DNA of 33,812 nt from Nitrospiraceae bacterium. Its GTDB lineage: Bacteria > Nitrospirota > Nitrospiria > Nitrospirales > Nitrospiraceae. Position 1 is the first letter of the stretch. The number at the start of each line of letters is the position of its first letter. The stretch is taken from contig CAKKRE010000082.1 of the NCBI GenBank assembly GCA_919902505.1, forward strand, positions 1 through 33,812, given 5' to 3'. A model generated the notes under the pieces. That model ran no database searches. It was given only the letters and a program-made list of their open reading frames with translations, and was not told the DNA's origin. The position numbers and the translations under genes were made by a program. Of this stretch, positions 12,638-28,853 are shown piece after piece.

Positions 12638-15600
12638 TTACGGATAGGCCGCCAGGAGCCGCTCGGCAATCCTGAGGCGATCCCGATCTTCTTGTTTCTT
12701 GCACTGTCTTCGACAAGCCGCGCAGAACCGCAGGCGACCGGCAATCGAGCTGATGCCGCGGTCCTTGTTGTAGAAAAACGGGCAATCGGCCGGTCCCACG
12801 CCGGGGAGATGGGGAATGAGGTTCGCGACCACGGCAGCCGCGAGGTGGGCCATCATCCGTTCGACCGTAAATTCCGGACCCGTCAGCTGGTCGAGCAGGT
12901 CGAACGTGGACACGATGGAGAGACGCTCGCCCTTTCCCGGTTCGATCGGCCAATAGTAGAGATTTTTCTTTTTTCCGCTCCTGAGCGGGAAGTTGATCAT
13001 GCAGACCAGTCGATCCAGACCCAGTTCTCTTGGCTTGTTTTTCAGCCGCTCATAGAGGGTTTCGGCGACCACGTAGGCCTGATCTTCGTCTTGTTCCCGT
13101 CGCCAGGTGCCGATCGGCGCAGGGAACGAGACGGTTTCAAAGGAATAGACATCCTGCACCGTTGTCAGACGATCGCAAATCTCGGGGAGGTGGGGAATCA
13201 TGCGATGCGCGTTCCACATGCCGATCTTGATCCGGTCCTGTATGGCGCGTCTGCGCTGTCGTTCCGAAATGGTCCTGGTGCGTTCATACTCGGCTGCCGG
13301 TCTCGGAACACAAATCCGCTGGGCCGGGTTGCGCGCAAACACGACCGGTACGGCCCAATCGATGGCTTCTCCCGAAATCGAATAATTGACGGCCACCCGC
13401 GCTTCACGCGCCGCATCGCCGATGGACTGGCCCATGGCCAGCGCCCAATAGAAGTGGCGGGCAAAGGATGTCGCCGACACGTCCAGCACAGGGTATTGGT
13501 TGGCAACGACGGCCGGGACGCCGCCGGCGATCAAGGCCTGCGCCACCCCTCGGCTGAAGTCTTCGCGTCCCCCCTGTCCGGTCTCGCAGGCGTTCAGACA
13601 CACCAGACGAATGCCGCGCCGGCATACAATCTGCCGGAGCGTGGTTGAATCCAGTTCATGCACGCCGCCCTCAGCATTTTCGAAGAGGAGATAGCCGCAG
13701 TCGTCCTGCTCCCGATATTCGCCATGTCCGATGAAGTGCAGAATGTCGAACGGCGCGGCGGCGCCTTCGAGCGTTCGATGTAACAACTCAGGCGTGGCGT
13801 CGAGCAGGAGTTCCACGTCCGCCAGTTTCGCGTCGAGCAGTCGACGGAATCCGCTGCGAATGACGTCGGTTTCTTCCTCGACGGACAAGGCACCCAATCC
13901 CAACGGCTGTGCGACGACGACGAGAATGCGCATAGGGCCGGTTCGAGCCGGTATGCGTTCGGCGGGAATGGATGTGAGCACGTTGCGTGTGAAATTCACT
14001 TCCTCCAGCGCCAGGAAGGTCCTGCGATCGGGATCGTAGATGAATTCCCACGCCTGTCTGGCGAGCCAATGATTGTCCGAGGTAAAGATCAAGTTGAGCC
14101 GTTGCGTGACCTGTTCAGACCGGGCGGCATCGTAGAGACGGCGGACCTGGTCAGGAAAGAGCGCATTAAACAATGCGCCGCCGAATTCCTGGAGGTCTTT
14201 CTCGCCGGGTAGTTGAGGATAGCGGGGATCCCCGTCGATATAGCCGTGGAGGTGCTGTTGCATGGCATCGATGTCCTGCCACTGCGCGGCCGCCGGCTTC
14301 TGTTTGGCGCGGGCTCTGCCCGCAGTGCTGCCCGTCCCGATGTGCACCGTCTCCATCACCCGCGCATTACGGAAGGTGGCGATGAGCGTCGCGACCGCAT
14401 CGCGCGGGTCGGGATCGATGAGGGCGAGTTGGAACACGTCGTCGGGTTCGGCGCTCTGGGTCAGGGCGACTAGAGGCGGGACTGTCGTTGAGGCATGAGT
14501 CGCAGTCACAGTGGGGGAGCTGATGGCCGGTTGCTCGCGTGCAGGACCGGCTGCGATGGTGGGCTGCGCTTCAGTGCGAACCGCGCCCCGCCGCTTGCCG
14601 GACGGCAGGTCGTGCTCGATGTCGATCGGTGCCGCGGGCTGGGCCTCCCCGCGTAGAGCGCGGACCAAGAAGTCGACCGTGCCCGGATCGTCGAAGAAGT
14701 TCACATGGTTCACCGCCTTCTGTTGCGCCAGGTTTCCACCTAATCCGAAGCAGCCGACGCGGGTGCCCGGGATCGTGATCGCCCCACCGCTTCCCGAATC
14801 CACTCGCCAACCGCCTTCGGTCGGAACGACCAGATCGTTGGCCGTGGGAAAGAACAAGTCGGCTCCCGCATCGATGATTCGTTGCAGCACCCCCGCGTCC
14901 GGTTCGTAATTGGCGACCAGGGCCGAGTAGGCCTCGTTGGGAGGGTTTGGGGTGGCCTGCAACGCCTGGATGATGTCACCCTTATTGTCCATCGAGGCCA
15001 GCCCCGGTAGCCCGCCCACCAGACGGCGAGCGATCCAGGAGAGGGCTTCGCTGACAAATTCGACGCCGGTGGTGAAAGGATTGTCGGGAAATAATTCCAG
15101 GACGTTGGAGAGCCAGCTGGTGTACTGGGTGACATGGTCGGGTGAAGCCAGGGGGGTGCCTTCATTCGGGCTGGCGACGAGCACGGCACGGCCCAGTACA
15201 AACCGGTCAGCCAGCGAGCCGAAGAGGTCGCGACGTTCCACCAGATGCCGCAGGACCAGGCCACCGCGCGAATGGGTGATCACGTCGAAGGTCGTCGGGC
15301 GAGCGGGGAGGGCTTCGAGCAGCATCTGCACGTTGTCTTGCGGCGTGCGACTCAGGGTGAAGTGATCGAATCCATAGATGCGATTGCCATACACCGCCTG
15401 CAGTTCTTCGAAGAATGTTCTGCCGTTGCTGCCGCGGGTCTGCGCCAGCGAGCGGAAGGCTGCTTTGGTGCTGGAAAAGGTCCCGTGGATGAACAGAAGA
15501 TTCCGCTCCGATGCGCTCAACGTCTGTAAGTCTGCGGCAGGCAGGCCCGATTCTCCGCCGAGACTGTCGGCGGTTATGGACAGCCACCCTTCCCGTTGTT

Positions 15601-16114
15601 TTTTCAATTTCCACGTGGCGGTTTCCCACAGCAGCGCGAGTTTCGAGAGGGCAAAGTCGGCAATTTTCCCTGCCACTTTGAGCACCACGGCTTTGATCGC
15701 CGCGCTGATGAATCCGCGGCGGCCGCCTGCTTCAGCGATGGGCGCGGCCGGCACCGGGATCGAGAACCGATAGATTCTCTTCCCGCCGCGTCGAGTCCCG
15801 CGTCGGGCCGGTTCCGTCGGCATATGGAAGCGGATGGCTCCGGAGGCGTATCGCGTCATCACGATATACGCGTCGTCAGGAGCGCCTTCGACATCCAGGG
15901 TGAGGGGAGCCGGGGCCGCCTCGCCTCGTCTGGCCTTCGGCGTCGCGGTGAGGGTTTGCTCGACTTCCCAGCGCTTGGTGGCGGTGAGGTTGGCCACAAA
16001 GGGGTCAGGTACCTCTCCTGCTGCCCGTCGCCCTCCACGAGCCTGTTCCGCCGCACGAACGTCCCAGCCCTCTGTTGTCGACCAGCTTACCTTGCCGGAT
16101 TTTTTGTGCGCCAT
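12638..16114 (-). CDS. Lipase-like alpha/beta hydrolase - CHAT protease fusion protein
   Basis: A 1158-aa soluble protein with three recognisable parts. Residues ~200-485 form an alpha/beta hydrolase: oxyanion-type LLFIHGTFSS, nucleophile elbow THSRGG (Ser282), and candidate acid and base D427 (TANDLVVP) and H470 (AVNHVNFF). Residues ~725-930 form a CHAT (caspase-HetF) protease with the dyad His797 (HFIGHG) and Cys843 (LNACETG). The C-terminal ~220 residues are less familiar. They end with a cysteine cluster (one Cys in ADCPFF, then FCAACRRQC) that could bind zinc, and resemble the degenerate metallopeptidase-like modules seen in effector proteins, though no HExxH motif is present. No signal peptide is visible. 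CHAT proteases often act in prokaryotic cell-death or immune systems, but no sensor gene lies beside it. The start at 16114 has only a G-rich run as ribosome-binding site. Confidence 0.85.
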   Translation of the reverse strand: MAHKKSGKVSWSTTEGWDVRAAEQARGGRRAAGEVPDPFVANLTATKRWEVEQTLTATPKARRGEAAPAPLTLDVEGAPDDAYIVMTRYASGAIRFHMPTEPARRGTRRGGKRIYRFSIPVPAAPIAEAGGRRGFISAAIKAVVLKVAGKIADFALSKLALLWETATWKLKKQREGWLSITADSLGGESGLPAADLQTLSASERNLLFIHGTFSSTKAAFRSLAQTRGSNGRTFFEELQAVYGNRIYGFDHFTLSRTPQDNVQMLLEALPARPTTFDVITHSRGGLVLRHLVERRDLFGSLADRFVLGRAVLVASPNEGTPLASPDHVTQYTSWLSNVLELFPDNPFTTGVEFVSEALSWIARRLVGGLPGLASMDNKGDIIQALQATPNPPNEAYSALVANYEPDAGVLQRIIDAGADLFFPTANDLVVPTEGGWRVDSGSGGAITIPGTRVGCFGLGGNLAQQKAVNHVNFFDDPGTVDFLVRALRGEAQPAAPIDIEHDLPSGKRRGAVRTEAQPTIAAGPAREQPAISSPTVTATHASTTVPPLVALTQSAEPDDVFQLALIDPDPRDAVATLIATFRNARVMETVHIGTGSTAGRARAKQKPAAAQWQDIDAMQQHLHGYIDGDPRYPQLPGEKDLQEFGGALFNALFPDQVRRLYDAARSEQVTQRLNLIFTSDNHWLARQAWEFIYDPDRRTFLALEEVNFTRNVLTSIPAERIPARTGPMRILVVVAQPLGLGALSVEEETDVIRSGFRRLLDAKLADVELLLDATPELLHRTLEGAAAPFDILHFIGHGEYREQDDCGYLLFENAEGGVHELDSTTLRQIVCRRGIRLVCLNACETGQGGREDFSRGVAQALIAGGVPAVVANQYPVLDVSATSFARHFYWALAMGQSIGDAAREARVAVNYSISGEAIDWAVPVVFARNPAQRICVPRPAAEYERTRTISERQRRRAIQDRIKIGMWNAHRMIPHLPEICDRLTTVQDVYSFETVSFPAPIGTWRREQDEDQAYVVAETLYERLKNKPRELGLDRLVCMINFPLRSGKKKNLYYWPIEPGKGERLSIVSTFDLLDQLTGPEFTVERMMAHLAAAVVANLIPHLPGVGPADCPFFYNKDRGISSIAGRLRFCAACRRQCKKQEDRDRLRIAERLLAAYP

Positions 16115-20892: not shown

Positions 20893-23800
20893 ATGAGTAC
20901 GGACTTTTTCTCGAAACCGATTCTGAATACTCCGTATGCATGCCCCGCCCGGCATTGGGAACTCGATGAGCAAGGCCAGCCGACGCATCAAATCATAGAG
21001 AGCCGCCGTCCTGCCGAATTCATCACGCCGATTCCCAAGCCCAAGAAACGAAAATCCTCAGAAAAGCAGTCTTCGATGGTTTTCGACGAGGGAAAGGGGC
21101 TCTCAACACAGGAACAGCAGTATGACATCACGGCCATCATCAACGGGGTGCGTACCCAAGTTGAGGCATGGCGAAATTTGCAGAGCTCGAATGATTGGCA
21201 GGTCACTCCCGAAACTGCTCGCTTACTGCAACACTGGCGGCATCACAAGTTCAGTAACACTCGACCATTCTTTTGCCAAGTTGAGGCGGCTGAAACGGCC
21301 ATCTGGCTGACAGAAGTTGCCCCCAATACCAAGGCAGGCAAAGGTTTTCTTGAGCACCTCGCGAACGCCAACAACGACGCGAATCCAGGCTTAACGCGAC
21401 TGGCGTTGAAACTGGCCACAGGAGCCGGCAAGACCACGGTCATGGCCATGCTGATCGCGTGGCAGACGATCAACGCCGTACGGCGCCCCAACAGTAAGAA
21501 ATTCACCCGTGGTTTTCTCGTCGTGACGCCTGGCCTCACGATCAAAGACCGCCTGCGCGTTCTTCAGCCGAATGATCCGGACAGTTACTACGCGAGCCGT
21601 GAATTGGTGCCCAATGATCTGCTCGGCGATGTGAGTCACGCGAAGATCGTCATCACCAATTTTCACTCGTTCAAACTTCGAGAACGAATCGAGTTGTCAA
21701 AGGGTGGCCGGTCGCTGCTTCAAGGACGAGGCGAAGAGCTGCAGACTCTCGAAACCGACGGCCAAATGCTCCAGAGAGTGATGCCCGATTTGATGGGCAT
21801 GAAGAATATTCTCGTCCTCAACGACGAGGCGCACCATTGCTACCGAGAGAAGCCAGGTGCAAAGGCCGAGGAAGAAGACCTCAAAGGGGATGATAGGAAA
21901 GAGGCCGAGAAGAACAGCGAAGCGGCTCGCCTCTGGATTTCCGGCCTAGAGATAGTCACACGAAAACTCGGTGTCACGCAGATCGTCGATCTATCGGCCA
22001 CCCCATTCTTTCTGAGTGGCTCAGGTTACGCGGAGGGCACCCTCTTCCCCTGGACCATGAGCGACTTCTCGCTCATGGACGCCATTGAGTGCGGCATCGT
22101 CAAACTCCCGCGTGTGCCCGTCGCCGACAACATTCCCGGTGAAGAGATGCCCATGTTCCGCAATCTGTGGGAACACATCCGGACGAAAATGCCCAAGAAA
22201 GGGCGGGGCAAGTCCGACAACCTCGATCCACTCAGCCTACCGCCGCAACTCCAAACCGCGCTCGAAGCCCTCTATGGTCACTACGAGAAGACCTACGAGC
22301 TTTGGGACAAAGCCGGTATCCGAGTGCCGCCCTGCTTCATTGTCGTCTGCAACAACACCTCCACCTCCAAGTTGGTCTACGACTATATCTCCGGCTTTCT
22401 CCGCGAGAACGATGATGGGTCAGAGACTCCTATAGCCGGACGCCTCGCGCTGTTTCGCAACTTCGATGAACACGGTAACCCGTTCGCCCGGCCGAACACT
22501 TTACTGATTGACAGCGAGCAACTCGAATCCGGCGAAGCCCTGGACGACAAATTTCGCAGTATGGCCGCCGATGAAATCGCCCGCTTCCGAAACGAGGTCA
22601 TGCAGCGCGGTGGCAAGCTGGCTGATGAACTCCGAACAGGGAAAGAACTCGATGACGTGACACTGCTCCGAGAAGTCATGAACACCGTGGGCAAATACGG
22701 CCAGTTGGGCGGGTCAATCCGCTGCGTCGTCTCCGTCTCCATGCTCACCGAGGGCTGGGATGCAAATACCGTGACGCATGTGTTGGGCGTTCGAGCCTTC
22801 GGCACGCAGCTCCTTTGCGAACAGGTCATTGGCCGCGCCCTCCGCCGCCAGTCCTACGATCTGAATGAAGATGGGCTATTCAATGTGGAATACGCCGATG
22901 TCTTGGGCATTCCCTTCGACTTTACTGCCAAGCCGGTGGTCGCGCCTCCTCAGCCGCCTCGCGAAACTATCCACGTCAAGGCCATGCGTCCCGAACGCGA
23001 TCTCCTCGAAATCCGTTTCCCGCGTGTGGTGGGCTACCGCGTCGAATTGCCCGAGGAACGTCTATCTGCCGAGTTCAACCAGGACTCCATGCTGGAGCTG
23101 ACCCCGGACCTGGTCGGGGCGACAGAGACAAGAAACTCAGGAATCATTGGCGCACCGGCGGACCTCACGCTGGTTCATACCGGGGATGTTCGGCCCTCGC
23201 AGGTTCTCTATGAGCTGGTGTCTCATCTTGTGCTGACCAAGTGGCGCGATCCGGGTGAAGATCCCAAGCTCCACCTCTTTGGGCAGCTGAAGCGCATCGC
23301 CCGACAATGGCTTGATGGGTACCTCGTCTGCAAGGGCGGCACCTATCCAGCGCAGTTAAAATACAAGATGCTGGCTGACATGGCTTGCGAACGCATCACC
23401 GCCGGGATCATACGAAAGTTCGTCGGCCAGCGGCCAATCATGGTGCTGCTCGATCCCTATAACGCCACTGGTTCCACCGCTCACGTTAACTTCAACACCT
23501 CAAAAACCGATCGCTGGGAGACGGATGCCCGCCGTTGTCACCTCAACTGGGTCATCCTCGATAGCGATTGGGAAGGGGAATTCTGCCGCGTGGTCGAGTC
23601 CCATCCACGCGTTCGGGCCTACGTTAAGAACCACAACCTCGGTTTCGAAGTGCCGTACCGCTATGGCTCAGAATCGCGGAAGTATCTGCCCGACTTCATC
23701 GTGCTGGTGGACGACGGACACGGCGAGGAAGATCTCTTGCACCTCATCGTCGAGATCAAAGGATACCGGCGCGAAGACGCGAAGGAGAAGAAATCGACCA

Positions 23801-23961
23801 TGGAGACCTACTGGGTGCCTGGTGTGAATCATCTGGGCACCTATGGGCGCTGGGCCTTTGCCGAGTTCACTGAGGTCTATCAGATCGAGGCCGACTTCAA
23901 GGCCAAGGTCGAAAGCGAGTTTAACAAGATGATCGACACGGTCACAGGCGCGAAGGATTGA
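20893..23961 (+). CDS. Type III-like restriction helicase-nuclease (Res subunit, BPTD_3080-like)
   Basis: The 1022-aa product is a superfamily 2 helicase fused to a C-terminal nuclease. Motifs: Walker A ATGAGKT (175-181), motif II NDEAHH (~308-313), motif III LSATPF (~366), motif VI QVIGRALRR (~643-651), preceded by SMLTEGWDANTVTHV. Near the C-terminus PDFIVLVDD (~932) and LIVEIKGY (~951-958) form a PD-(D/E)xK nuclease signature. The order helicase then nuclease, and a type III-like methylase two genes downstream, indicate a restriction subunit that translocates or scans DNA and cuts unmodified sites. The N-terminal ~130 residues are family-specific. The start ATG has no strong ribosome-binding site. 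The next gene begins within 1-10 bp of its stop, so they are co-transcribed. Confidence 0.9.
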   Translation: MSTDFFSKPILNTPYACPARHWELDEQGQPTHQIIESRRPAEFITPIPKPKKRKSSEKQSSMVFDEGKGLSTQEQQYDITAIINGVRTQVEAWRNLQSSNDWQVTPETARLLQHWRHHKFSNTRPFFCQVEAAETAIWLTEVAPNTKAGKGFLEHLANANNDANPGLTRLALKLATGAGKTTVMAMLIAWQTINAVRRPNSKKFTRGFLVVTPGLTIKDRLRVLQPNDPDSYYASRELVPNDLLGDVSHAKIVITNFHSFKLRERIELSKGGRSLLQGRGEELQTLETDGQMLQRVMPDLMGMKNILVLNDEAHHCYREKPGAKAEEEDLKGDDRKEAEKNSEAARLWISGLEIVTRKLGVTQIVDLSATPFFLSGSGYAEGTLFPWTMSDFSLMDAIECGIVKLPRVPVADNIPGEEMPMFRNLWEHIRTKMPKKGRGKSDNLDPLSLPPQLQTALEALYGHYEKTYELWDKAGIRVPPCFIVVCNNTSTSKLVYDYISGFLRENDDGSETPIAGRLALFRNFDEHGNPFARPNTLLIDSEQLESGEALDDKFRSMAADEIARFRNEVMQRGGKLADELRTGKELDDVTLLREVMNTVGKYGQLGGSIRCVVSVSMLTEGWDANTVTHVLGVRAFGTQLLCEQVIGRALRRQSYDLNEDGLFNVEYADVLGIPFDFTAKPVVAPPQPPRETIHVKAMRPERDLLEIRFPRVVGYRVELPEERLSAEFNQDSMLELTPDLVGATETRNSGIIGAPADLTLVHTGDVRPSQVLYELVSHLVLTKWRDPGEDPKLHLFGQLKRIARQWLDGYLVCKGGTYPAQLKYKMLADMACERITAGIIRKFVGQRPIMVLLDPYNATGSTAHVNFNTSKTDRWETDARRCHLNWVILDSDWEGEFCRVVESHPRVRAYVKNHNLGFEVPYRYGSESRKYLPDFIVLVDDGHGEEDLLHLIVEIKGYRREDAKEKKSTMETYWVPGVNHLGTYGRWAFAEFTEVYQIEADFKAKVESEFNKMIDTVTGAKD

Positions 23962-23970
23962 TTGACGACG

Positions 23971-25443
23971 ATGCCGACGAAACGACTCAGAATCTTTATC
24001 AGCAGCGTGCAGAAAGAGTTCGCGCAACTTCGCCGGGACCTGAAAGCCTTCTTGCTCGGTGATGCCGTGCTGCGCCGTTTTGTGACTGAGGTGTTTCTGT
24101 TCGAGGAGATGCCGGCCAAGGACCGCCGCGCCGATCAAGTCTATCTCGAAGAAGTCGAACGCTGCGACATCTACCTGGGCCTCTTCGGTTATGAATACGG
24201 CAACGAAGACCGGCAAGGCGTGTCCGCGACGGAGCGCGAATATAATCACGCCACCCAACTGGGCAAACCCCGGCTGATCTATGTCTGGGGCGCCGACGAC
24301 AGCAAGCGCGCCGTCAAGATGAAGTCGTTGGTTCGGAAAGTCGGCAGCGAACTGATCCGTCGCCGTGTCGAAGATGTGAGCGCGCTGACGACCGAGGTCT
24401 ATGCCAGCCTTGTGGACTATCTGGACGACATGGGCGCGCTGCGTGTCCCGCCGTTCGATACCTCCGCATGCGACGGCGCCGGCCTGAAAGACCTCTCGCG
24501 CAAACGTATCGGCTGGTTCCTGGAAACCGCTGGCCGCGAGCGCGGTTTTCCACTCAAGCCTAACACCACGACCCAGGCCCTGCTCACCCACCTCAATCTG
24601 CTCGACCATGGCAAGCCCACCAATGCCGCCATGCTCCTGTTTGGCGCGAATCCTCAGCGCTTTCATCGCACCGCCGAGACCAAATGCGTGCATTGCCACG
24701 GCACTGAGTATCGCCGCCCCTTCGCCTCCCAACAGATTTATTCCGGCGACCTGTTCGACCAGGCGAATCAGGCGCACGATTTCGTGCTGGCAAAAATCAA
24801 CCGTGCCATCGGTACCCGCGCCGTCAGCATCACCGCACCGGCCACCTACGAACTGCCGCCCGATGCCGTGGGTGAGGCGATCGTCAACGCCATCGCCCAC
24901 CGCGATTATCACAGTAACGCTTCAGTCGAGGTCCGCCTGTTTGCCGACCGGCTTGAAGTCTGGAACCCCGGTTCGCTCCCTGGAACGCTCACGCTCGACG
25001 ACTTGCGCAATGATCATCCTTCCGTGCCCCGCAACCCGCTGATTGCCGAGTCGCTCTATCTCACCCGCTACATTGAGAAAGTAGGGTCGGGTACCCAGCG
25101 CATGATCGAGCTCTGCCGGCAAGCTGGACTGCCCGAACCGGATTACGAACTGCGCGCCGGATCGTTCGTCCTCACCCTGTGGCGCAACTGGCTGACCGAT
25201 GAGGTGTTGGCCCGACTCGATCTCAGCGGGAGGCAGCGGCAAGCTATTGCCGTTGTCAAAGCCCAAGGTCACATCACGAATCGGAATCTCCGCGAGCAGA
25301 GTGGTGTAACCATTCGGACAGCTTCCCGCGACCTGGAAGATCTCGTCCGAAAAGGAGTACTGACGAAAGTCGGGGACACGGGCCGGAGCACCTTCTATGT
25401 GATATCCCGTAAACTGGACACAAACAGGACAAACAGGACATGA
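23971..25443 (+). CDS. DUF4062 - GHKL ATPase - winged-helix protein in the restriction operon
   Basis: About 490 aa. The N-terminal ~110 residues are DUF4062 (LRIFISSVQKEFAQLR ... CDIYLGLFGYEYG ... SATEREYNHA), a TIR-related fold found in signalling and defence proteins. Residues ~180-400 resemble the AlbA/RecG-like ATP-binding proteins, with a GHKL N-box AIVNAIAHRDYHSN and EKVGSGTQRMIELCRQAGLPEP. The end is a winged helix (NRNLREQSGVTIRTASRDLEDLVRKGVL). The usual AlbA_2 domain seems replaced by DUF4062. I use ATG 23971; a TTG at 23962, right after the upstream stop and 4 bp from AAGGA, is an equally possible start. The tail DTNRTNRT is coded by the short repeats that continue downstream. The role is probably regulatory or abortive-infection-like; this is inferred from domains and position. 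Confidence 0.85.
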   Translation: MPTKRLRIFISSVQKEFAQLRRDLKAFLLGDAVLRRFVTEVFLFEEMPAKDRRADQVYLEEVERCDIYLGLFGYEYGNEDRQGVSATEREYNHATQLGKPRLIYVWGADDSKRAVKMKSLVRKVGSELIRRRVEDVSALTTEVYASLVDYLDDMGALRVPPFDTSACDGAGLKDLSRKRIGWFLETAGRERGFPLKPNTTTQALLTHLNLLDHGKPTNAAMLLFGANPQRFHRTAETKCVHCHGTEYRRPFASQQIYSGDLFDQANQAHDFVLAKINRAIGTRAVSITAPATYELPPDAVGEAIVNAIAHRDYHSNASVEVRLFADRLEVWNPGSLPGTLTLDDLRNDHPSVPRNPLIAESLYLTRYIEKVGSGTQRMIELCRQAGLPEPDYELRAGSFVLTLWRNWLTDEVLARLDLSGRQRQAIAVVKAQGHITNRNLREQSGVTIRTASRDLEDLVRKGVLTKVGDTGRSTFYVISRKLDTNRTNRT

Positions 25444-25643: not shown

Positions 25644-28600
25644 ATGGCCAAGACACCCAAGAACACCACCGGTTCGAAGAAGAGCGTCGAAGCGCTGAAG
25701 CACGACGAAGCCAAGCGCAAGAACATCCCCACGGCTGAATACCAGTCCGTCTTACAAAAGACAGAGCAAGACCCGGTTCGTGTTGCCTATAAACGCGAGG
25801 CAGCCAGACTCGAAGAGGAAAAGACAGGACGCAACCGCGATCTCGACCCGCAGCTCATCTGGCGTGGCAAGGATGAGCAAGATTGGTCCGACCTCGTCGT
25901 CCAGGCCCCGCCGCTCTACATTCAGGAGAAAGTCCACCCCAAGGCACTCATCGACGACCTGCTGCGTGAGTCGCGTGAGCGTGAATACGAAACCGGGCAA
26001 CTCACGCCCGACCTGTTCGCGGACTTTAACGGCATCCCCAAGGGCGTGGACAAGACCGAGTTCTATCAGCACGACCAGAACTGGTCGAATCGCATGATTC
26101 TCGGCGACTCGTTACAAGTGATGGCGAGCCTCGCCGAGCGTGAAGGATTGCGCGGCAAGGTGCAGTGCATTTATCTCGACCCTCCCTACGGCATCAAATT
26201 CAACAGCAACTTCCAGTGGTCTACCACCAGCCGCGACGTGAAGGACGGTAACGCCAGCCATATCACTCGCGAGCCCGAGCAGGTCAAAGCCTTCCGCGAT
26301 ACCTGGCGCGATGGCATCCATAGCTACCTCACCTACTTGCGGGATCGGCTCACAGTCGCCCGCGATCTCCTCACCGATTCCGGCTCCATCTTCGTGCAGA
26401 TCGGCGATGAAAATGTCCATCGCATACGGGCGGTGATGGATGAAGTTTTCGGTGAGGATAATTTCTGTTCAACAATTCAAGTCACTAAAACGGGAAGCCA
26501 ATCCGGCGCTCTTCTGTCAAATGTTGCGGATTCCATTGTTTGGTATTCGAAATCAAAACCGAATATCAAATTCCGGAAATTCTTTCTGGAACGCCCCGAA
26601 AGAGAATCCCGTGAGGCGTCGCCCGATCCTGTTCTGTCTTCGGGCTTCAGAACGAACACTTCTGTTCCATTCACATTTAGAGAGAAAGTCTATGATCCGG
26701 GCACCAGCTACAACTGGAAAACCCACCTTGTAGGAATGGAGCGATTAGCAAAGGCGGATCGCCTGATTCCGCAAAAGACAGCACTCCGATACGCACGGTA
26801 TTTCGAAGACTACCCTGTAAAGGAAGCCAGTAACATCTGGGCAGACTTAGGCGGGGCATCCGATCTGATTTATGTAGTCCAGACAGCCACCAAGGTTATT
26901 CAGCGTTGTATCCTTATGGTCACTGACCCCGGTGACCTTGTGCTCGATCCGACGTGCGGTTCCGGCACTGCCGCCACCGTCGCCGAGCAATGGGGCCGGC
27001 GGTGGATCACGATTGATACGTCGCGTGTGGCGCTGGCGCTGGCCCGTGCGCGCATCATGGGCGCGCGCTATCCGTTTTACCTATTGGCTGATTCCCTAGA
27101 AGGCCAGATCAAAGAAGCTGAAGTATCCCATACCGCGCCGTCGTCGCAGCCAGTGCACGGAAACATTCGCCATGGCTTCGTCTATGAACGCGTGCCGCAC
27201 ATTCAATTAAGTGACATCGCCAACAACGTGGAGATCGATGTCATCTGGGACAAGTGGCAGACAACGCTAGAGCCGTTGCGCGAGTTGTTGAACACCGCAC
27301 TCAAGAAGACGCCTGCCGTCCGAAGCCTTGGCGAAGGAGGGTGGCAGGAGTGGGAGATTCCCCGTGAAGCCGATGCCAAGTGGCCGGACGCGGCGAAGAA
27401 GCTGCACGCCGATTGGTGGCAAGCCCGCATCGCCAGGCAGCAGGAAATTGATAAGTCCATTGCCGCCAAGGCTGAGGTCGAATACCTCTACGATAAGCCC
27501 TATCCCGATAACAAGAAGGCCCGCGTGGCCGGGCCATTCACGGTCGAAAGCCTCTCGCCACACCGTGTGCTTGGGGTGGATGAAAACGACAAATTGATCG
27601 ACCAGCTGAAGGAACGCAGCCCGGAGTACGGTGCGAAGCAAAGCTTTGCCCAAATGATTTTGGATAATTTGAAGACTGCCGGCGTTCAGCAGGCTCACAA
27701 GGAAGGTCGCATCACCTTTACCACTCTCACGCCATGGCCTGGCGATCTCGTCTGTGCCGAAGGCCGGTATATCGAAGGCAACGCCACAACGGGCGTTGAA
27801 AAGCGCGCTGCCATCTTCATCGGCCCGGAGTTTGGGACTGTCACCCGCCCCGACCTGGTCGCTGCCGCCCGCGAGGCGGGCGATGCCGGCTTCGATGTGT
27901 TGATCGCCTGCGCCTTCAACTACGACGCCCACTCTACGGAGTTCAGCAAGCTGGGCCGCATTCCGGTGCTCAAAGCCAGGATGAACGCTGATCTGCACAT
28001 GGCCGACGATCTCAAGAATACCGGCAAGGGAAACCTCTTTGTCATTTTCGGTGAGCCTGATATTACGGTGGTCAGTGGCCAGTGGTTGGTGGCCAGAAAT
28101 GGGAGGATGATCGCCAATTATGAGCACGTTAAAGAGTTATCAGGACTTGGAAGTCTGGAGGAAATCAATCGAGCTGGCCGAGCAGGTCTATCGGATATCG
28201 GGAAGGTTTCCGGTGGAGGAACGGTTCGGACTAACGTCCCAAGTTCGGCGGGCCGTGGCGTCAGTGGCGGCGAATATCGCGGAGGGAGCGGAACGGGAAG
28301 GGACGCGGGAGTTCCTCCAGTTCCTGGGGATCGCGAGCGGGTCACTGGCGGAGACGGAAACATTTCTGCATTTGGCTGCAAGGCTTGGGCTGGTGTCCCA
28401 GCCCGATATCAATCCGATTCTAGAACAGGCGGCCACCGTTGGTCGAATGCTCAACGGACTCAAGCACTCTCTGCGCTCGAAAACCTGAGGGAATCGGATT
28501 TCCCTCTTTCACTGACCACCGACCACAGGGCACAGGTCACCGTCCACGGCGTGGACGTATTCAAGCCTCAGACCGGCGAAGTCATCAGCGACGGCGCCGA

Positions 28601-28853
28601 CGGCATCGCCTGCTGGTTCATCGATACCGACTATAACGAAGAGAGCTTCTTCGTCCGCCACGCCTATTTCCTAGGCGCGAACGATCCCTATAGCGCGCTC
28701 AAGACCACACTCAAAGCGGAGATTGATCCAGAAGCCTGGGCCACCCTCAATAGTGACACCTCACGCGCCTTCCCCAAACCGAAGTCCGGACGCATCGCCG
28801 TGAAAGTCATCAACCATCTCGGCGATGAGGTGATGAAGGTGTTTAAGGCATGA
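25644..28853 (+). CDS. Type III-like (beta-class) site-specific DNA methyltransferase, carrying an in-frame inserted element
   Basis: The 1069-aa product is an adenine-type DNA methylase. Motif IV DPPYGIKFNS (~178) precedes the target-recognition region and then motif I DPTCGSGTAATVAEQ (~434), the beta-class order typical of type III Mod proteins. It should protect the sites cut by the Res protein two genes upstream. Residues up to ~806 (LFVIFGEPDI) are collinear with the family. About 160 residues follow, coded by the element at 28065-28543 and partly Gly-rich. The conserved C-terminal block then resumes at VHGVDVFKPQTGEV, through GIACWFIDTDYNEESFFVRHAYF, to the end. No stop or frameshift interrupts the frame, so a full-length protein with a long internal insert is possible. 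The recognition region (26440-26930) is visibly richer in A+T than its flanks. Confidence 0.9.
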   Translation: MAKTPKNTTGSKKSVEALKHDEAKRKNIPTAEYQSVLQKTEQDPVRVAYKREAARLEEEKTGRNRDLDPQLIWRGKDEQDWSDLVVQAPPLYIQEKVHPKALIDDLLRESREREYETGQLTPDLFADFNGIPKGVDKTEFYQHDQNWSNRMILGDSLQVMASLAEREGLRGKVQCIYLDPPYGIKFNSNFQWSTTSRDVKDGNASHITREPEQVKAFRDTWRDGIHSYLTYLRDRLTVARDLLTDSGSIFVQIGDENVHRIRAVMDEVFGEDNFCSTIQVTKTGSQSGALLSNVADSIVWYSKSKPNIKFRKFFLERPERESREASPDPVLSSGFRTNTSVPFTFREKVYDPGTSYNWKTHLVGMERLAKADRLIPQKTALRYARYFEDYPVKEASNIWADLGGASDLIYVVQTATKVIQRCILMVTDPGDLVLDPTCGSGTAATVAEQWGRRWITIDTSRVALALARARIMGARYPFYLLADSLEGQIKEAEVSHTAPSSQPVHGNIRHGFVYERVPHIQLSDIANNVEIDVIWDKWQTTLEPLRELLNTALKKTPAVRSLGEGGWQEWEIPREADAKWPDAAKKLHADWWQARIARQQEIDKSIAAKAEVEYLYDKPYPDNKKARVAGPFTVESLSPHRVLGVDENDKLIDQLKERSPEYGAKQSFAQMILDNLKTAGVQQAHKEGRITFTTLTPWPGDLVCAEGRYIEGNATTGVEKRAAIFIGPEFGTVTRPDLVAAAREAGDAGFDVLIACAFNYDAHSTEFSKLGRIPVLKARMNADLHMADDLKNTGKGNLFVIFGEPDITVVSGQWLVARNGRMIANYEHVKELSGLGSLEEINRAGRAGLSDIGKVSGGGTVRTNVPSSAGRGVSGGEYRGGSGTGRDAGVPPVPGDRERVTGGDGNISAFGCKAWAGVPARYQSDSRTGGHRWSNAQRTQALSALENLRESDFPLSLTTDHRAQVTVHGVDVFKPQTGEVISDGADGIACWFIDTDYNEESFFVRHAYFLGANDPYSALKTTLKAEIDPEAWATLNSDTSRAFPKPKSGRIAVKVINHLGDEVMKVFKA
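28065..28543 (+). mobile_element. IVS-like element with terminal inverted repeats and a four-helix-bundle gene, inserted in the methylase gene
   Basis: The left end (28065-28096, ACGGTGGTCAGTGGCCAG...) is complementary to the right end (28512-28543, ending CACAGGTCACCGT) at about 25 of 32 positions, including the outermost six. The interior holds one complete gene (28120-28488) with its own ribosome-binding site. The element interrupts the methylase between FGEPDI and VHGVDVF, motifs that normally lie close together. The host frame is open through the whole element. The last few bases of the right arm may be host sequence that matches by chance, so the exact borders are uncertain by about 15 bp. 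I see no clear target-site duplication. Confidence 0.78.
28120..28488 (+). CDS. Four-helix-bundle protein (23S-rRNA IVS / S23 / Avd-like family)
   Basis: The 122-aa product has the hallmark sequence of this family: SYQDLEVWRKSIELAEQVY at the start, FPVEERFGLTSQVRRA in the middle, then SVAANIAEGAEREGTREFLQFL and SGSLAETETFLHLAARLGL. Length and spacing are normal and the frame is intact. The ATG at 28120 is preceded by GGGAGGA 12 bp upstream. Members are encoded in intervening sequences of 23S rRNA genes, in intergenic regions, and, as Avd, in diversity-generating retroelements, where they bind nucleic acid. Here the gene lies on the same strand as, but in another frame from, the methylase that surrounds it. 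It would be translated from the methylase transcript or from its own. No reverse transcriptase is nearby, so a retroelement role is unlikely. Confidence 0.9.
   Translation: MSTLKSYQDLEVWRKSIELAEQVYRISGRFPVEERFGLTSQVRRAVASVAANIAEGAEREGTREFLQFLGIASGSLAETETFLHLAARLGLVSQPDINPILEQAATVGRMLNGLKHSLRSKT

Follow-up and report, generated by a model that had tools for sequence, protein, structure and literature searches.

The intervening sequence (IVS) in the rRNA of Coxiella carries an S23p gene, inverted ends that form a stem and GACAGAT heptamers upstream, and rRNA IVSs are excised by RNase III without ligation of the fragments (PMC4990558). In-frame insertion into protein genes is already known from another system, the Rickettsia palindromic elements (RPEs), which carry no gene in a second frame (PMC10969869). 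Our literature search, outside which most subscription papers lie, returned no report of S23/IVP (PF05635) elements inside protein genes.

Cyanobacterial STRRs are tandem repeats of degenerate heptamers that lie mostly between genes. The heptamer arrays TAACTGA (PMC4679880) and GGGAATC/GGGGATT (PMC4692102) are also mostly intergenic, and their origin is unexplained.

Here we describe a locus that ties together the unexplained S23p/IVP protein of rRNA IVSs, the heptamer repeats, likewise unexplained, of many bacterial genomes, and the insertion of elements in frame into protein genes. The locus lies in a 33,812-nucleotide stretch of DNA from a Nitrospiraceae bacterium (contig CAKKRE010000082.1, positions 1-33,812, assembly GCA_919902505.1), which is called the window below. 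Sequence comparisons point with good probability to an IVS-type mobile element sitting in a hairpin turn of a type III DNA methyltransferase (Mod), in an orientation and frame that keep the host open reading frame (ORF) open, with the DNA read twice. An initial annotation of the window had recognized an IVS-type element in frame in a methylase, and this part stands; it had not seen how general the arrangement is, with heptamer ends and with copies in many phyla and four host families.

The element and its host gene

The host gene encodes an N6/N4 DNA methyltransferase of 1069 aa and is open throughout (25644-28853, + strand). The protein matches PF01555 (E 7e-32) and, in separate stretches, the PADLOC model MTase_III PDLC03632 (1430 bits), has the EcoP15I Mod (4zcf) as its best fold match, and retains intact catalytic motifs DPPY and DPTCGSGT. 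The partner restriction (Res) subunit of the same type III restriction-modification (RM) system is encoded at 20893-23961 (+), recognized by a ResIII match, an RE_endonuc match just under the cut-off and PADLOC. The full-length match, the catalytic motifs and the Res partner together identify the host as a type III Mod. Two neighbors in the window are defence-like, a CHAT protease with DUF7379 (12638-16114, - strand) and a DUF4062/HATPase_c_4 protein (23962-25443, +).

The borders of the element (28065-28550, +) were placed by alignment with close Mod homologues, mostly 68-90% identical and found in the same order, which are without residues ~811-959 of the window Mod. Where the site is empty, the protein runs GEPDI-DILKEKDGKLRVKVKG-VDVF, and where it is filled, GEPDI-TVVSGQWLV...LTTDHRAQVTVHG-VDVF, with the ESDFPLSLTTDH region forming part of the host-frame insert peptide. 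No target-site duplication is visible at the borders; the element replaces a 16-codon hairpin turn of the empty homologues, for a net gain of 146 codons, and the Mod C-terminus restarts undamaged at VDVF (28551-28853, +). This mapping against uninterrupted homologues had been proposed with the initial annotation, whose in-frame split of the methylase before an undamaged C-terminus it confirms. Of the borders given there (28065-28543), the left one is retained and the right one moves to ~28547-28550. The annotation would have been refuted by homologous methylases keeping the same ~160 residues without the bundle frame; the close homologues have no insert at all.

In the Mod fold, the element stands in place of a beta-hairpin turn. 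An AlphaFold model of the window Mod, a prediction also suggested earlier, places strands at residues 806-816 and 958-973 on either side of the insert, at low overall confidence (pLDDT 56), and shows little order between them, with residues 853-932 under 50. On this model, the ends of the insert probably extend the hairpin strands and its middle is probably disordered.

The element is bounded by two arms of degenerate heptamers, delimited by inverted-repeat and duplex analysis of the sequence. Reading at period 7, the left arm (28068-28095, +) follows GTGnnnn four times (GTGGTCA GTGGCCA GTGGTTG GTGGCCA) and the right arm (28510-28547, +), its inverse, follows CACnnnn five times plus a final CAC (CACTGAC CACCGAC CACAGGG CACAGGT CACCGTC CAC). 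Positions 28066-28077 and 28510-28521 form a perfect inverted 12-bp core. The arms of the window copy pair far better than shuffled controls (duplex z -3.9), and the predicted RNA fold of the element stretch beats 100 of 100 shuffles (z -3.95). The inverted terminal repeats of the initial annotation are real, and the long stem that it expected from them is predicted here as well.

Between the arms lies a four-helix-bundle gene of the 23S_rRNA_IVP or S23 type (PF05635; 28120-28488, +; 122 aa), supported by its ORF, Pfam, structural relatives and purifying selection. A Shine-Dalgarno-like GGGAGG (28101-28106, +) stands 13 nt upstream of its ATG; most embedded copies have such a purine-rich run and some are without one. 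The ORF covers PF05635 from end to end (positions 1-106 of 106, E 6e-37, 126.5 bits against a curated cut-off of 33.8) and has solved S23-type relatives in 2GSC (E 5e-26) and 2RLD, in agreement with the earlier description of a complete IVS-type bundle gene. The family of the DGR accessory protein Avd (bAvd, PF22296) is matched with only 24.2 bits, against a cut-off of 40. A Pfam search of the element and the methylase returned PF05635, the sub-threshold bAvd match and methylase domains only, with no splicing or homing-endonuclease domain and no transposase inside the element; no recombinase was found. Directly after the bundle stop codon and inside the host coding sequence (CDS), a GAGGGAA-TTCCCTC hairpin followed by T's (28487-28506) looks like a terminator; it is poorly kept in other copies. 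Host codons begin at the third codon base of the bundle gene, which we call the +2 frame.

Recurrence at one Mod site and in other hosts

We scanned an alignment of the bundle against 84,980 species genomes and obtained 49 loci. The 18 closest (L090-L107) lie within or adjoining Mod sequence with the +2 host frame open, and come from Nitrosomonadales, Methylococcales, Thermodesulfobacteriota, Chloroflexota, Poribacteria, Methylomirabilota, Planctomycetota, Verrucomicrobia/PVC, Balneolota, Bacteroidota and Nitrospirota. Both Mod borders are visible at the identical site in 15 of these 18 further loci, or 16 counting the window copy; L098 and L099 end at contig ends. L102 (53-979) carries an embedded-type element with Mod on its right side only, the left flank not being Mod, possibly through rearrangement or an assembly join. 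The element ends and the +2 relation are identical in both Mod subfamilies, and two distant Nitrospirales Mods share the arrangement of the window copy. Eighteen loci besides the window thus carry the element in Mod, and other genomic copies with matching ends, a search for which had been proposed as a test of the initial annotation, do exist.

No carrier genome has more than one embedded copy. A DNA-level search of the window's own genome found no other like copy, and its three other PF05635 genes are all free. The host-frame profile A2, which contains no conserved stretch, was run on 398 Pseudomonadota genomes, and the already known carrier was the only one open beyond the element. A phage collection gave no match, and IMG/VR gave one PglX case and otherwise free copies.

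Outside Mod, four further copies are in frame with a host protein, all in +2. One interrupts a BREX PglX between AGG and ADKD (L140, on an IMG/VR contig that is possibly a bacterial fragment). Two lie in HmaB methylases of Chloroflexota (L315 and L320), between PPVNPE and GAQGLAADVRYYG, at a site that is empty in Meiothermus. The fourth, with arms GGTTCAGGGTTCAGGG and CCCCGAACCCCGAAC, is in a Peptidase_C39 protein of Nitrospirales (L216), for which a search for an empty-site homologue found none. Two surveys of Nitrospirales (34 and 80 loci) gave 114 PF05635 loci, three of them embedded in a recognizable host (the window copy, G195 and G017); in Chloroflexota, the figure is three of 90 (one Mod and two HmaB), the 60 loci of the later scan among these 90 showing no +2 embedding. 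The embedded fraction in these two groups is about 3%, and five of the six embedded copies are in defence methylases. This count leaves out L228, L116, L110 and L139, in which the +2 frame is open with no recognizable host protein; these free-looking bundle genes, two of them from Caldilineaceae (L110 and L116), are possibly descended from embedded copies. Two loci are of other kinds. In L369 (G814:C1:5550200-5550514, - strand), a PF05635 gene runs stop-free through SHLQP repeats into a DegT-type-looking aminotransferase, a fusion in the bundle's own frame, and in L194 (NZ_OY725717.1, Collinsella), pglX is broken up into three CDS and has a gap, apparently by something other than a PF05635 element.

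Free PF05635 genes are also bracketed by inverted arms of degenerate heptamers. Over 46 loci, arm scores have a median of 16.5, versus 9.0 on average when the loci are mismatched, and the strong arms among them reach an identity of.48 at lag 7 and.45 at lag 14, versus about.28; a second set of 79 loci gave an arm score of 15.0 versus 8.0 and a lag-7 identity of.35 versus.25. The sequence of the heptamer unit differs from element to element while its period of 7 is constant. The array upstream of one free bundle gene (L319, G728:C11:238196-238513, - strand) reads as LSVISYQ repeats, which is the peptide of the reversed TAACTGA heptamers of Beggiatoaceae (PMC4679880). A link between these Beggiatoaceae repeats and PF05635 elements is possible.

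These distributions bear on whether the bundle is a mobile element's gene or a domesticated module, encoded within the defence methylase and serving it as partner or regulator, for example by binding the mRNA stem or the enzyme, and kept for the benefit of the host. Embedded copies do favor defence DNA methylases (Mod, PglX, HmaB), occur once per genome and conserve the bundle protein, all of which a domesticated module would explain. We nevertheless consider it unlikely, since close Mod relatives do without the bundle, a C39-peptidase protein is also a host, the majority of PF05635 genes are free and have comparable heptamer ends, and the distribution is scattered.

Less probable still is a single old insertion that is not itself mobile and has travelled with Mod by horizontal transfer, with occasional loss. 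It would account for the common site and ends of the clade A copies, and Mod, an RM gene, is itself mobile and occurs on plasmids. However, a Mod tree built without the insert columns requires four or more changes between filled and empty, and on it the window Mod and L090 are nested among empty Mods, the former among empty Mods of Nitrospirales. On the bundle tree, the embedded copies fall into three clades, a single clade being rejected (p 0.04), and clade B is present in both of the divergent Mod subfamilies. The PglX, HmaB and C39 hosts are further points against one insertion, as is the need for a clean loss to restore the empty hairpin. The trees thus favor repeated entry into one Mod site, and some of the changes between filled and empty states could be losses by recombination with empty homologues.

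Selection in two reading frames

Judging from sequence divergence, the bundle protein is under purifying selection: its three codon positions diverge by.19,.14 and.44 in clade A. Within the bundle gene, the two frames are not selected alike, the residues of the host frame being nearly free, and fourfold sites diverge slightly less in the insert (.48) than they do in the flanking host sequence (.52). The part of the element outside the bundle gene, here called element-only DNA, carries a coding signature in the host frame, with divergence at the three host codon positions of.22/.13/.40 on the left and.21/.11/.44 on the right. Downstream of the bundle stop codon, a segment with host-frame coding only (28489-28509, +; the ESDFPLSL region) contains an invariant DFPL, in which first and second positions are kept and third positions vary freely. 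Since the third positions of the host frame are silent in element-only DNA, the methylase appears to be translated through the element, and the simplest reading is that ribosomes read the host frame from one border to the other.

The initial annotation had also offered an mRNA excision and a switch inactivating the enzyme, and the coding selection on the host frame in element-only DNA speaks against both. The RNA-level explanation holds that RNase III cuts the arm stem, removing the insert from the mRNA or splitting Mod. A strong arm stem is predicted in most copies, and rRNA IVSs set the precedent for such excision, but excision needs neither an open host frame nor silent third positions, and excision without ligation, as in rRNA IVSs (PMC4990558), would split the mRNA. 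In L103, L104 and L140, moreover, arm pairing is not above shuffles, over an analyzed interval that does not take in the whole right arm of these copies. We regard an RNA-level event as very unlikely.

The openness of the host frame was assessed by synonymous codon permutation of the bundle gene. Twenty embedded copies have 0 host-frame stops versus 51.5 expected, three later-found copies have 0 versus ~6.8, and synonymous shuffling predicts ~58 for all 23, which have 0, the copies being phylogenetically related and so not independent. Stops in the +1 frame of embedded copies are as numerous as the permutation predicts (3-17 per bundle gene), and 45 free bundle copies have 327 stops versus 380 expected. 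Embedding is always in +2, likely because +1 is full of stops and +2 is expected to carry few. Taken alone, the window copy would allow a GC-rich alternative frame that merely happens to stay open (P = 0.057), but the recurrence, with 23 of 23 copies open where about 58 stops are expected, effectively excludes chance, and the host frame bears a coding signature. The earlier claim that one stretch of DNA encodes two proteins is borne out to the extent that stop counts and coding selection in both frames can tell.

A probable mobile element read twice, and its known relatives

Building on what these comparisons establish (the insertion, the double openness, coding selection in two frames, recurrence at one site and repeated changes of host), we propose that an element made of a PF05635 gene and inverted heptamer arrays has entered the exposed beta-hairpin turn of mod, in the only orientation and frame to leave the host ORF open. 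The bundle would be made from an internal start behind GGGAGG, and a ribosome on mod would pass through the element to yield a full-length methylase with an insert of ~146 residues, presumably still active. The bundle or the heptamer stem may take part in movement or site choice. Among the three meanings offered by the initial annotation, a mobile element kept frame-neutral fits best.

It is quite possible, if short of probable, that heptamer-armed PF05635 elements form a mobile class that is dual-coding and chooses its sites, repeatedly entering exposed loops of Mod, PglX and HmaB and persisting through an overprinted open host frame, with both proteins expressed. The locus is a natural and broadly sampled example of overlapping coding, one stretch of DNA serving both a host gene and the gene of what is probably a mobile element. 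It further provides a short, testable model for site choice by PF05635 elements, and indicates that the hairpin of defence methylases is permissive and takes up about 146 residues more.

Like inteins and homing introns, the element sits at one conserved position in a conserved gene, probably spreads horizontally and leaves the host product in place; unlike them, it has no splicing or endonuclease domain in Pfam, and the insert apparently remains part of the protein. With the TAACTGA (PMC4679880), GGGAATC/GGGGATT (PMC4692102) and STRR arrays it shares tandem degenerate heptamers of varied sequence, which here, in contrast to those arrays, form inverted ends around a PF05635 gene. RPEs (PMC10969869) are likewise inserts of palindromic type that lie in frame in unrelated protein genes and lengthen the protein, translation being deduced here from selection. 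However, RPEs are about 150 bp long, have many copies per genome and are without a PF05635 gene in a second frame, whereas the embedded element is about 440 bp long, has one embedded copy per genome and covers a wide phylogenetic range.

Further close counterparts are the rRNA IVSs of Leptospira and Coxiella with an S23p ORF, which have in common with the window element a single PF05635/S23 ORF, a length of about 430-450 nt, stem-forming inverted ends, tandem heptamers beside the ORF and a patchy distribution (PMC4990558). The differences are that the window element lies in the mod CDS and not in a helix of an rRNA gene, and that it is dual-coding with an open host frame, such that removal from the RNA is not needed. 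The S23p ORF of Coxiella is decaying (PMC4990558), whereas the bundle gene is conserved in embedded copies. On this sequence evidence, we class the window element with the rRNA IVSs, as an element of their kind that resides in a protein gene, departing from the definition in its location outside rRNA.
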